Positions 2,198-63,850 of a DNA stretch of 64,000 nucleotides are shown here, piece by piece. The notes beneath the pieces are model-generated. The model had not been told where the DNA came from, searched no databases, and was given only the letters and a program-made list of their open reading frames with translations. This DNA is from Cytophagales bacterium (GTDB lineage Bacteria > Bacteroidota > Bacteroidia > Cytophagales > Microscillaceae). Position numbers and translations under genes: made by a program. The DNA lies in NCBI GenBank assembly GCA_013298075.1, contig JAAFJG010000016.1, forward strand, positions 1 through 64,000, written 5' to 3'. The first letter of the stretch is position 1; every line of letters starts with the position of its first letter.

Positions 2198-3172
2198 ATG
2201 GAAACAATAGAAAGTAATTATATGAATATGTTAAGAGAAGAATCACTCCCTTATGTTTCGACATTTGAAGAGAGTGTTTTCGACTATGAATATGATAAAA
2301 ATTCTTCTATTATTTATCCTGAATCTGATGGAAAGCCTATGGCAGATAGTACAACACAATTTAATTGGATAATAACCATTCAAGGTGGTTTAGATTCGAT
2401 GTTTAAGAAAAATACAGATGTTTTTGTAGCAGGGAATTTACTTTGGTATCCAGAAGAAGGACAACCAACGATTGCGATTGCCCCTGATATAATGGTGGCT
2501 TTTGGAAGACCAAAAGGAGATAGAAATTCTTACAAACAATGGTTGGAGGATAACATCGCTCCGCAAGTAGTTTTTGAAATATACTCACATAGTAACACTA
2601 CAAAAGAGATGATGGATAAATTACGATTTTGTGAGAAATACGGCGTAGAAGAATTTTATATTTATAAACCCAATTCTAATAAATTGTATGGTTGGACTCG
2701 TAAAAATAAAACTGATAAGTTTGATGAAATTCTGTTTATAGATAATTTTGAAAGTCCTTTATTGGGTGTTCGTTTTCAAATTTATAAGAAAACAATCAAA
2801 ATTATTACTCCAAAAAATAAAGAGTTTTTAACTTTTGTAGAGCAAAGTGAAGCCTTTGATGAATTAGAATTGGAGAAAGAAAAGGCTGTCGAGATAGCAG
2901 AAAAGGCTCTTGCCTCTGAAAAAATTGCTCTTGCCTCTGAAAAACTAACTCTTGAAATTTTAGAAGAAGAAAAAGCGGAGAAGGAAAAGGCTCTTGCCTC
3001 TGAAAAACTAACTCTTGAAATTTTAGAAGAAGAAAAAGCGGAGAAGGAAAAGGCTCTTGCCTCTGAAAAACTAACTCTTGAAATTTTAGAAGAAGAAAAA
3101 GCGGAGAAGGAAAAAGCTATGGCTGAAATTGAAAGATTAAAAGAATTATTGAAAAATAAATTTTACTTTTAA
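2198..3172 (+). CDS. Uma2-family PD-(D/E)XK nuclease-fold protein with repeat coiled coil
   Basis: Residues about 50-205 match the Uma2 (DUF820) family, a PD-(D/E)XK nuclease fold. Visible motifs are APDIMVAFG (first Asp), VVFEIYSHSN (Glu) and MMDKLRFCEKYGVEEFYIY (Lys and the conserved GV-EY core). The catalytic set therefore looks intact. Residues about 220-320 form a charged coiled coil containing three copies of a 21-residue unit (EKALASEKLTLEILEEEKAEK) encoded by a nearly perfect 63-bp DNA repeat. Uma2 proteins are usually about 180-200 aa, so the 324-aa length is due to this tail. Their cellular role is not established; many occur as dispersed multicopy genes. A terminator follows, so it looks monocistronic. 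Confidence 0.82.
   Translation: METIESNYMNMLREESLPYVSTFEESVFDYEYDKNSSIIYPESDGKPMADSTTQFNWIITIQGGLDSMFKKNTDVFVAGNLLWYPEEGQPTIAIAPDIMVAFGRPKGDRNSYKQWLEDNIAPQVVFEIYSHSNTTKEMMDKLRFCEKYGVEEFYIYKPNSNKLYGWTRKNKTDKFDEILFIDNFESPLLGVRFQIYKKTIKIITPKNKEFLTFVEQSEAFDELELEKEKAVEIAEKALASEKIALASEKLTLEILEEEKAEKEKALASEKLTLEILEEEKAEKEKALASEKLTLEILEEEKAEKEKAMAEIERLKELLKNKFYF
2928..3117 (+). repeat. 63-bp in-frame tandem repeat, 3 copies
   Basis: Three copies of a 63-bp unit at a spacing of exactly 63 bp read the same at DNA level, apart from drift at the last boundary. A partial repeat (coding ALASEK) precedes them. Identity at silent positions points to very recent expansion. The unit is a multiple of three, so copy changes lengthen the coiled coil without shifting frame. 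Confidence 0.9.
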
Positions 3173-48426: not shown

Positions 48427-48530
48427 TATTGTGAATTAAACTAAAATTAAAATATTTAAAGAAAATATGAGATGCTTACAAAATAATATATATTCTTTTT
48501 TTATCCAATCGAAGTATAATTTTACGAACA

Positions 48531-48560
48531 AAAACAATAAAAAACAATAAAAAACAATAA
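48531..48560 (+). repeat. Three tandem 10-bp repeats just before a start codon
   Basis: AAAACAATAA occurs three times in perfect tandem, ending 6 bp before ATG 48567, where ribosomes bind. Copy-number change would alter leader length and perhaps expression. Confidence 0.85.
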
Positions 48561-48566
48561 AAAAAT

Positions 48567-59728: not shown

Positions 59729-60307
59729 ATGAAAAAATACATTTTTTGGCTCGTGCTACTGCTCGCACTCGCAGCCACTGCTTGTAAAAAGAAAGCAGAC
59801 CCCGAACCCATACCTCCAGATTTACCACCCGCTACAGAAGTAGGCGCTAATACCTTTGGTTGTTATTTTAATGGCGTGCCTTGGACACCTCGAACCAACT
59901 CACCCTACTGCCTTTGGTGTAGCCCCATATTAGATGCAGGATATGAGTATGCAATAGGTAGTGACGGACCTTATTTTAGAATGACAGCAAAAAAACAGTA
60001 TGAAAATGGGACTGAGGAACGTATTCGCATTTTCTGTGGTAAATTACTAAATATAGGTACTTACTCTTTAAAAAAACAAACCGAACAAGGTTGTTCAATA
60101 GTTCGAAGTATTCCAAATGCCTCAGTAGGAAATATTGATATATTTTCGTATGATGCTGATGTAATAGAAGATGGGGAGTTGATTATTACCAAGATAGAAT
60201 TTCGAAGTACAGGCGTTATTATCGCTGGTCGTTTTTGGTTTAAGCTTCAAAAAGGCAATGAAGTATATGAGACAAAAGATGGTCGTTTTGATGTATTAGC
60301 TCGTTAG
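59729..60307 (+). CDS. Lipoprotein of the DUF6252-like type
   Basis: 192 aa with a textbook lipoprotein signal (FWLVLLLALAATAC, Cys19) and a Pro-rich linker. The mature part has the plan seen in many small Bacteroidota lipoproteins: an NGVPWTP motif near the N-terminus (about 50-56), a beta-rich body, ITKIEFRSTGVIIAGRFWFKL at about 150-170, and a closing KDGRFDV. I place it in the DUF6252-like group with moderate confidence. The function is unknown. It may precede the phase-variable exported hydrolase gene in one transcript, since the gap is only 43 bp. Confidence 0.75.
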   Translation: MKKYIFWLVLLLALAATACKKKADPEPIPPDLPPATEVGANTFGCYFNGVPWTPRTNSPYCLWCSPILDAGYEYAIGSDGPYFRMTAKKQYENGTEERIRIFCGKLLNIGTYSLKKQTEQGCSIVRSIPNASVGNIDIFSYDADVIEDGELIITKIEFRSTGVIIAGRFWFKLQKGNEVYETKDGRFDVLAR

Positions 60308-60350
60308 TTAGTATTTTTTTTAAATTTATTTAATCTTTATTTATAATTTT

Positions 60351-63300
60351 ATGTATAAAATTTCGTTATATTCGCAGGCTGGCAAATCGCTGGCAAATCG
60401 CTGGCAAATCGCTGGCAAATCGCTGGCAAATCGCTGGGTTTATTCTTTTTTATCTTATTTCTTTAGGACTTTCTGCACAGTCAGTTAGTGAACAAATAGG
60501 TGTTCTTGATCCAAAGGGAAATAGTTCTTCTATAAATGCTATATTTGCAGGTTTAGATAAAACACAAATTCCTACAGGTTTCCTTTATGAGTATGGTATA
60601 AATTTGACGCAAGAAGGTCAACTTTTAGGTAATATCACCACTCAAAATAAATTATCTCTTAGCTCTTGGCGAGCTGCTTACGAGAGTGTGCATACGAGTA
60701 GAATCATTGCCAATAACCCTCTGCAGGCTTTGAGACAAATTAATACGCAACTTCAATCTTACACACAAGGGAATGTGATAGCTTTGCCTATATTTTATTT
60801 GCAATACGCAACTTTTAGACAAGATGCTGCCAGTGCAAATCTAATATCTGCACAAAATAAAGTATTATTTGATGTACCTAACCGCCTTTTCAATCCTTAT
60901 TTGCTCAAAACTTCTTTTGGTGTAGCCCCTACCCAACAAGAAAATACTACGGGCGAGATGGATTTTGTTTTCAAATCTAATCATTTCTATACCAATACAG
61001 GCTTATCAATTCAGACTTTAGAAGCAGATTTTGATAATGGACAAGGTTATCAAATCATGCAATGGAATATCAATAAGCATGTGGTATATAGTTCGTCAGG
61101 TCAAAAAACTTTGCGTTATCGTATCAAATTTAGTAATAATTTGATACAAGAGGGGCATTCAAATTTTGAAGTATTTTTACCTCTTGTCAGCAATATTGCG
61201 ATGAGATATAGTGAAAATCAAACGCCACCAACAATTAGAATCAATCCAAATGGTGAAAGGGCAGGCGGAACAGGTCATATTTTGTATAGTGATGAAAATA
61301 TGGCTCTCCCTATCTCACAAAGACGTATTCGTAAACCCTTAATAATAGTCGAGGGTTTTGACGCTTCTTTTATTGCACCTCAATTACAAAGTGAAAATTA
61401 TGATTGGAGACGCTTTATTAGGGATATTAGTGAAACGCAAATAATAAACAATCAACAAACCTTCAATGATTTACTAAGTGGTCAGGAGGGTAAGTATGAT
61501 GTTATTTTTGTAGATTATGACAATGGGGCAGATGATATACGTAGAAATGCGGAGATGTTTAGGGAAATTATCAAAGCGGTAAATCTGATGAAAGAACCTT
61601 TGATAGCAGGACAGCCCAAAGAAAAAAATGTAGTGATAGGTATTAGCATGGGTGGTTTGGTTAGTCGTTATGGTTTAGCCACAATGGTAAGAGACCATAA
61701 TGAAAACCCAGATACCCGCTTACTCATCACACACGATAGCCCGCATAGAGGCGCGAATGTTCCTTTGGGTATTCAGATAGCACTCAAAACTTTATATTCA
61801 TATAGAAATACAAACGGTATTAGTAGCCTTGCTGACCAAGTAGGTTTAGAACTTATAGACCAGGCAACGACTGCTTTAATGTCCCCTGCTGCTCAGCAAA
61901 TGCTCATTAATCTTCATCAAGATAACTCTGTACCTACAGCAAATCTTACACATCCTTGGCCTCAAGCTAATGCTGCACATAGAGGTTTTTTGGCGGGTGA
62001 ATATCGTTCTAAAGTGACAGGCTTTGTAGAACCTTATGAGTTTGTGGCAACGAGTATGGGTTCAGAGTGTGCTATACCCAATATAGCACCTGGTGGACTG
62101 TTAGCTTCAATAGATGGTGGGGGTCCTATAATGTTATTTGGTGGTTTGAATATTGGCGATTTAATGATAGATGTTAAACTAAATGCGTTGAGTCATTTTG
62201 GCAACACGAGAGTATTTTATGTTAATATATCAAGGAGAGTTGGTTGGGGCTGGTTTTCAAGTACTAGTACAATAGTAAATGTAAGCAGTTCTGTTTCAGG
62301 ATCGCCAGCTTGGGATAGTTCGCCTGGTGGTTCTTTATCTATTAATGTTAGTAGAAATTCACAAAGTACTATAAATATTCCAAGTTATATTATTAAAGAC
62401 TGGTGGTTTTTTGATAGAATTAGTATTTTCAATAGTACTTCTACAAATGCTCAAGCTGATTTTTGTTTTGTACCTTTGATAAGTGCTTTAGATATAAATA
62501 CATTGAATATATTTCAAGTTACTAATACAAATTATAGTGAAGCACCTACAAGTGTAAGAAGATTTATAACGCAAGAACCCGAAATAATTAACGGCGTTTT
62601 AAAACATAATAAACGACATCCTTCAGCCGTTCCAACTCGTACAGCAAGGTGGATATTCAAACAAATGGAAACAAACTATAATGTAACAAATAGTAGTTTA
62701 ATTTGTGATCGTCCTTGTCCTCCTTCTGGCTTACCAAATATAAACATAAGTAATGCTTTGATGTGTGTAGGTGAACAAAGAGTTCTTACCACTAACACAA
62801 ATTGGACAAATATTGTCATCACTACTTCTGCTAACTTGGTTTATAATGCTGCACCTAATAGGTCTGTAACCGCTATCGATAAAGGTTATGCTTGGATAAT
62901 CATAAAAGCAACAGTGAATGATTGTCAAGTTCATTTAAAATCTATTTATTTATGGATAGGCGAGCCTTATGGTACAAATGCAATACGTTTGGTAAATTTT
63001 ACTAATCCACGATATGCTCCTAATGGTACATTACAAGTATGTAGTGGTTCAGTGCTTACTTTCGAAACAGACTTTGATTTGTTGCCTAATGGCGCAGATG
63101 CGGGAGTTACTGCTTTTGAATGGGACGGTGGAACTATTTTGAGTCAAGATGATAATTTAACAAATGAAGATCTTAGTGGAGAAAATACAGGACACCACAC
63201 CACTCCACATATCGCTGCTGCAGAGGGAGAAGTAGGATTAAAACCACGCACTTCACGTGTAACTATTAAATTTCCGATACGTTTTGCTACTTCTTTTGTT

Positions 63301-63714
63301 AATTTACGTGTCCGTTTAAAAAATAGATGTGGTGTAAGTGAATGGATCGAATATGCTATTTTAGTCGATGTAGATTATTGTTATTCGGGTGGTACGCCAA
63401 TCGGACCTGGTGCAGGTCCTTGGGATATTATTAGTCCTGTTGCTTTTGAGAATCCAATTGGTTCAGGTCGTTTAAAAATGCGTTTGATGAATATTCCTGA
63501 TGTTGATTATAATAATTTAGATCCTAAAACATTAGCAGGTTTTACGTATCAAATCAAATTATACAACAATCAAGGTGATGAAAAATTGATATGGGAAGGA
63601 AACACAGTCGAAAGTGATGCAGATGTTTCATTTTTACAACAGGGTTTGTATAGTGCCAAAGTTGTTTTCGGTAACGGACAATGCGTCAAAAATATTCATT
63701 TGATAAAAGAATAG
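60351..63714 (+). CDS. Exported alpha/beta-hydrolase (lipase-like), phase-variable, frame OFF as sequenced
   Basis: The body is open in one frame from 60334 to 63714. Codons from 60442 encode a signal core (ILFYLISLGLSAQ) and the mature start SVSEQIGVLDPKG. That frame has no ATG, GTG or TTG before 60604. The only ATG (60351, MYKISLYSQ) is one base out of frame and stops at 60486. Between them lie five 11-bp repeats; three or six copies would join ATG and body, giving a normal signal peptide with AGKSLANRWQI repeats in the n-region. The mature part holds a lipase-type elbow GISMGGLVSRYG and TRLLITHDSPHRGAN, then beta domains with Cys pairs. The end (GLYSAKVVFGNGQ...HLIKE) resembles a T9SS sorting domain that lacks the YPNP start. 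About 1120 aa if ON. Confidence 0.8.
60379..60437 (+). repeat. 11-bp tandem repeat (CTGGCAAATCG), 5 copies plus 4 nt
   Basis: Perfect tandem copies at 60379-60389, 60390-60400, 60401-60411, 60412-60422 and 60423-60433, then CTGG. The unit is not a multiple of three, so each gain or loss shifts the reading frame of the exported hydrolase gene. Its GC content is above that of the surroundings. Confidence 0.95.
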
Positions 63715-63734
63715 ACAAAAAATATTACATAAAA

Positions 63735-63774
63735 AAAAGACAAAGACATCAAGAAATTGATGTCTTTGTCTTTT
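63735..63774 (+). terminator. Terminator with GAAA tetraloop
   Basis: An 18-bp perfect stem (AAAAGACAAAGACATCAA and its complement) with loop GAAA and a T-run. A strong functional terminator 20 bp after the hydrolase stop argues that the gene is still under selection. Confidence 0.88.
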
Positions 63775-63850
63775 TTATTTTTGATTTAAAAAACAATTTA
63801 TAAAATAAATTCGCTCCAAAAAATATATAAAAAACAAAAAAAATCGTTTA

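Follow-up and report, generated by a model that had tools for sequence, protein, structure and literature searches.

The gene that begins at position 60351 of the window (the whole 64,000-nucleotide stretch of Cytophagales DNA analyzed here) is very probably a translational phase-variation (contingency) locus, and one of several alike in this genome and its relatives. Judged from sequence alone, it combines a tandem array, a broken ATG frame, and an intact body under selection; its layout recurs at other loci, paralogs differ by whole repeat units, and an ON example exists elsewhere. Cells probably flip these exported proteins on and off at random through gain or loss of repeat copies, with slippage, reversibility, and rate being inferred. 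The features of the locus are:

59729-60307, + strand: small lipoprotein gene of the Riean_0653 family (NCBIfam NF052634), with a fixed ATG start and no array
60334-63714, + strand: open body frame, 1,126 codons from stop to stop plus the stop codon, with about 1,090 codons from 60442
60351-60488, + strand: ATG frame as assembled, 45 amino acids, which crosses the array and leaves the signal-peptide frame (OFF; translation and frame arithmetic)
60378-60437, + strand: perfect tandem array of unit GCTGGCAAATC, 5.45 copies (TRF)
60439-60480, + strand: signal-peptide hydrophobic core and presumed cleavage region, FILFYLISLGL-SAQ (FILFYLISLGLSAQ; translation; heuristic)
61639-61653, + strand: GISMG, the GxSxG nucleophile motif of a PGAP1-like hydrolase domain (motif position, PF07819)
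63733-63776, + strand: intrinsic terminator closing the unit, with a 20-bp stem, a 4-nt loop, and a T-rich tail

The 60-bp array starts 27 bp after the ATG and is without blemish (TRF period 11, 5.5 copies, 100% match, score 120); at this base composition, 49 consecutive matches at lag 11 would arise by chance with a probability of ~1e-26. No second copy of the GCTGGCAAATC array was found elsewhere in the 4.71-Mb genome, even with 3 mismatches allowed across two units. Translation from the ATG reaches a stop at 60486-60488, whereas the body frame has no stop between 60334 and 63711 (stop codon 63712-63714) and offers no ATG, GTG, or TTG ahead of the TTG at 60604. The distance from the ATG to the body is 91 bp, and a gain of one unit or a loss of two restores the frame. 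The first-pass annotation had described the start of the gene in the same terms, including the stop, the startless body frame upstream of 60604, the frame arithmetic, and an 11-residue peptide period before the hydrophobic core; its five-copy array at 60379-60433 is the identical array in rotated register.

With a unit length coprime to 3, the array gives one and the same stop-free cyclic peptide in all frames, AGKSLANRWQI, which lacks acidic residues. The array stands directly 5' of the core FILFYLISLGL (located with a home-made heuristic, not SignalP) and therefore codes for the n-region. Since the peptide is shared by all frames, the n-region of an ON allele would be acceptable whichever permitted copy number it has.

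We propose that transcription would reach the ATG at 60351 and that ribosomes would then cross the array and enter the signal peptide of the product, a large PGAP1-like hydrolase predicted to be exported. A unit of 11 bp is not divisible by 3, so that each unit gained or lost changes the frame; such changes, most likely arising by slipped-strand mispairing (an inference), would shift the signal peptide and body into or out of the ATG frame. The assembled 5.45-copy allele is predicted to be OFF, and alleles with one unit more or two fewer are predicted to be ON. Reversibility and rate are inferred as well. Programmed frameshifting was also considered and rejected: the units have no common slippery motif, and between paralogs that share an ATG the frame changes by whole units.

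The product has a PGAP1-like alpha/beta hydrolase domain that meets both marks of the family, a PF07819 score over the gathering cut-off (25.0 bits against 24.3, thus marginal) and a GxSxG motif, here GISMG followed by DSPHRG at 61735. The earlier label of a lipase-like T9SS-type protein rests, in its hydrolase part, on this match and motif, and the T9SS tail was overstated: Por_Secre_tail (PF18962/TIGR04183) scores 15 bits against a cut-off of 27, so the protein does not qualify as type A cargo. The related L110 protein of the same genome does pass the T9SS sorting-domain cut-off (TIGR04183). An AlphaFold2 model of the hydrolase was uninformative (pLDDT 31), and no relative with a solved structure was found by sequence. 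Surface export and enzymatic role are inferred.

The layout is not confined to the window. We surveyed a 2.26-Mb sample of the 4.71-Mb genome, and hence only part of it, listing perfect arrays of at least 3 copies with units of 7-30 bp and then screening for an ATG followed by an array and a signal peptide. The sample adds three loci (L110, L079, and L142) with an ATG, a frame-breaking repeat containing G/C, a signal peptide, and a long intact ORF; L173 of the same genome shows the same layout:

L110: unit AAAATCGC, 8 bp, 6.0 copies; PGAP1-like protein with a T9SS tail, 971 codons
L079: unit CATCGTGC, 8 bp, 5.1 copies; lipoprotein with a HELGH motif, 676 codons
L142: unit AATTCGC, 7 bp, 4.6 copies; lipoprotein, 480 codons
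L173: 8-bp unit, 6.1 copies; paralog of L079

At the three added loci, with units of 7 or 8 bp, an ATG precedes the array by 7-10 nt and opens only a short frame; the body frame, followed upstream, stays open across the array. In triplicate, the CATCGTGC unit occurs genome-wide only at two gene starts, those of L079 and L173. A T/A-only 7-bp array lies in another signal peptide, at L071, where it is ON. The predicted switch layout is thus common to several loci and genera rather than a one-off, a sharing that the first-pass annotation had missed.

Arrays are over-represented at signal-peptide starts, which hold 8 of the 37 arrays in 2.5% of the sampled bases (P = 3e-6). Three of these eight are not between ATG and core, being located 5' of the ATG or largely within a neighboring gene, and L142, a ninth signal-peptide array, was missed by the heuristic and is outside this count. 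The units of arrays well inside genes are all divisible by 3; frame-breaking units stand at 5/6 versus 0/6 (Fisher P = 0.015), with numbers that are small and sorted by hand. Acidic residues are encoded by none of the eight distinct units, and K or R by six of them; ~0.3 of stop-free genomic k-mers satisfy both conditions. This composition would suit an n-region in which every ON copy number is tolerated, and lends modest support. We do not count the lack of stops in the units as independent evidence, since it follows from any frame that stays open across at least three copies of such a unit.

Other repeats were also seen. In the window, another gene with a signal peptide carries a perfect 10-bp array (AAAAACAATA, 3.5 copies, 48530-48564) immediately 5' of its ATG; stops are present in this array, which could act on initiation and not on the reading frame. 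A 63-bp unit, whose length is divisible by 3, is repeated in three near-perfect tandem copies at window positions 2927-3118. An in-frame 12-bp array at L076 11672-11707 extends a signal peptide (MFPLFNTKNILINILINILILFFSQIILAQ) and could vary its length, not its frame. Dispersed intergenic arrays have a 21- or 22-bp unit, CAGATAAATCTGGAGGCAATT (L063 17607-17692, L098 1710-1793, L105 12332-12438, L106 17751-17815, and L117 19814-19899), with related units at L130 and L144. The related genome G009 has many intergenic 7-bp and 14-bp arrays (AATTAGG, ACCATTC, AACCTTG, and similar; L153-L164), which are denser than in the genome of the window.

Copy number differs by whole units in each of three pairs of related genes. 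L079 and L173 have near-identical 5' ends that are exactly one 8-bp unit apart (5.1 versus 6.1 copies). The near-identity of these two genes begins shortly before the ATG and extends to the end of the signal peptide; overall they are only 58% identical, and their upstream regions differ, a pattern that suggests gene conversion or spread of a putative 5' switch cassette. L142 and its truncated duplicate L178 are exactly two 7-bp units apart (4.6 versus 2.6 copies). In a second genus (G006), two relatives of L142 share the 8-bp unit AAATTTCC and differ by five units plus one base beside the ATG: L179, with 8.9 copies, is in frame (ON), a continuous 547-codon ORF running from the ATG through the array, while L180, with 3.9 copies, is out of frame (OFF). 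Within G006, an ATG closely followed by two AAATTTCC units occurs only at the starts of these two genes. A third G006 relative, L182, carries 3.9 copies of CAATTTTT and is out of frame (OFF).

Two in silico predictions of phase variation, whole-unit changes and the existence of an ON form, therefore hold, and the reading put forward in the first-pass annotation is supported. Four marks of slippage-based phase variation are present: a 5' coding repeat not divisible by 3, an intact ORF that a whole-unit change would join to the start codon, whole-unit variation, and an ON form; a fifth, reversible and high-frequency switching within a population, is only inferred. The copy-number differences are between paralogs or relatives, not alleles of the window locus, and the ON form at L179 belongs to another genus and another gene family. 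No ON allele of the window locus itself was seen, a single assembly being in existence. Across the intact examples, 2 of 10 are ON and 8 are OFF, a predominance of OFF that weighs against a switch, although random frames would often produce it (3.3 ON expected, P = 0.30).

A draft genome in 153 contigs invites the question of whether the copy number is simply wrong and the gene in frame, since tandem arrays can collapse in assembly. We regard this as scarcely credible. At 60 bp, the array fits within an ordinary short read, as do most of the others (18-71 bp), and many loci across several independent assemblies would need to be wrong. The switchable architecture stands even if the count does not.

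A somewhat less remote but still improbable explanation is that the array lies in a 5' leader. The promoter would then be TATATTCG at 60367, between the ATG at 60351 and the repeats, the body frame would use a non-canonical start, and the repeat would tune expression or be neutral. A -7-like motif does stand between the ATG and the array of the window gene, which counts against the switch, and the window gene and the relatives in G009, G002, and G004 all have TAnnTTTG-like motifs near ATG+16 to +24. Across 351 signal-peptide genes, however, positions -60 to -20 show an excess of the motif and positions +10 to +35 only the background level. The exact motif also lies upstream of the ATG at L110 (-72), L079 (-40), L179 (-116), and L180 (-112), there is no usable start between the window array and 60604, and L179 is a single ORF from the ATG through its array. 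At L079 and L110, in-frame internal ATGs after the array could yield a short, uncharged signal peptide, and this too counts against a switch.

Relatives of the window gene occur in three Cytophagales or Cytophagia MAGs in GenBank (G002, G004, and G009). The G009 relative, from a third genus, carries 4.3 copies of an unrelated 11-bp unit, ATTTGCAACGC, at the equivalent site, and its ATG is out of frame (OFF). The site between ATG and core has therefore carried sequence-unrelated 11-bp arrays in two genera. In the G004 relative, the ATG is not in frame and 11-bp periodicity is present only as a degenerate trace, and the G002 relative is in frame (ON) from the equivalent ATG without any array. 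L012, which is 71% identical to the C-terminus of the window protein, has an ordinary start and no repeats. A scan of the genome contigs with the window protein gave no match. L002, a weak DNA match to the upstream region, was discarded as AT-rich noise.

The assembled allele is OFF, and one of the duplicated genes, L178, is truly truncated, so a decaying pseudogene has to be weighed, in which random repeat expansion broke the start and stops have not yet accumulated in the body. We consider this very unlikely. Intact bodies of 480 to 1,090 codons are found at at least four independent loci that share the layout, and the terminator and partner gene are retained. L079 and L173, both OFF, differ by dN 0.36 and dS 1.05 over 672 aligned codons without a stop. 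The window gene and its G009 relative, also both OFF, give dN 0.65 and dS 1.97, a ratio that is only approximate because dS is near saturation; for the window C-terminus and L012, dN is 0.21 and dS 0.44. Across paralogs and relatives, dN/dS is thus about 0.33-0.47. By these estimates, the OFF genes are under purifying selection, which is incompatible with long-dead genes and is what a switch with OFF as one of its phases would predict. The first-pass annotation had argued against decay from the long frame and strong terminator, and both the 20-bp stem and the substitution rates back that argument.

Every switchable gene examined in the genome adjoins one to three small exported (lipo)protein genes that have fixed starts and no arrays, a setting that the first-pass annotation had overlooked. 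The regions are:

Window, 59729-60307: one gene (two tandem copies in G002 and G004)
L110, 8994-10403: two genes
L079, 10944-12282, reverse strand: two genes
L173, 2253-3500, reverse strand: two genes
L142, 11549-13511, reverse strand: three genes

Within each tandem set, these small genes are paralogous to one another (30-70% identity). The one in the window ends 43 bp before the ATG at 60351 and is a clear family member (NF052634, E = 6.5e-34, 118 bits against a cut-off of 57). The order of lipoprotein gene and then switchable gene is kept in G002 and G004, where the homologous gene or genes lie directly upstream, and the end of a homologous upstream gene precedes the relative in G009. Riean_0653, the namesake of the family, affects hemolysis in Riemerella and is itself no hemolysin (PMC7881567).

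In layout, the cassettes resemble effector-immunity pairs with duplicated immunity genes, the putative toxicity and immunity resting on this resemblance alone. It is conceivable, though we hold it as no more than a tentative and rather doubtful idea, that they are lineage-wide, phase-variable antibacterial exoenzymes, repeat-switched at the signal peptide, whose fixed adjacent (lipo)proteins remain on and shield siblings in either state. If this is true, a clone would always hold a few armed cells while all of its cells are immune.

Most work on slippage-based phase variation concerns host-adapted pathogens whose repeat units are short. The putative switches described here belong to uncultured Cytophagales and are found in several unrelated families of exported proteins; their 7-, 8-, and 11-bp units vary by gene and genus and always lie at the site between ATG and core. 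Differing units at a constant site point, therefore, to the repeated, selected emergence of switches at export signals. Automated annotation will give functional secreted proteins of this group a wrong start or call them pseudogenes.

In the open-access papers searched, phase variation in Cytophagales receives only incidental mention, and, in line with the first-pass annotation, we found no described 11-bp case in the group. The class of mechanism is known, while the repeat class and its units, the lineage, the protein families, and the cassette layout appear to be undescribed. In Bacteroides, which shares the phylum and likewise switches surface functions on and off, phase variation occurs, in the part of the source available, by recombinase-driven DNA inversion, whereas repeat length would change here (PMC11868660). 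The simple-sequence contingency loci of Haemophilus influenzae include heptanucleotide and octanucleotide tracts, and, as here, tandem repeats with 7- and 8-bp units are proposed to mediate phase variation. In the portion of that source available, however, most repeats are tetranucleotides within ORFs, tracts of 7 and 8 bp are found mainly upstream of genes (hmw promoters) and in a few cases within ORFs, and there is no 11-bp signal-peptide class (PMC2651432).

A close likeness in design is to Neisseria opa (P.II), where phase variation is caused by CTCTT repeats in the region coding for the signal peptide (PMC3899988). Both systems have a frame-breaking repeat in signal-peptide coding sequence, a copy number that sets the ON or OFF state of an exported protein, and several loci per genome. 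In opa, the pentamer lies inside the signal peptide itself and the products are outer-membrane adhesins of a pathogen, whereas at the Cytophagales loci the units have 7, 8, or 11 bp, lie between ATG and core, and differ from locus to locus, the products are enzymes or lipoproteins, and the neighbors are small and exported. Held against opa, the window locus has the repeat in signal-peptide coding sequence and lacks both the CTCTT pentamer and an Opa protein; it works like opa and is not an opa gene.
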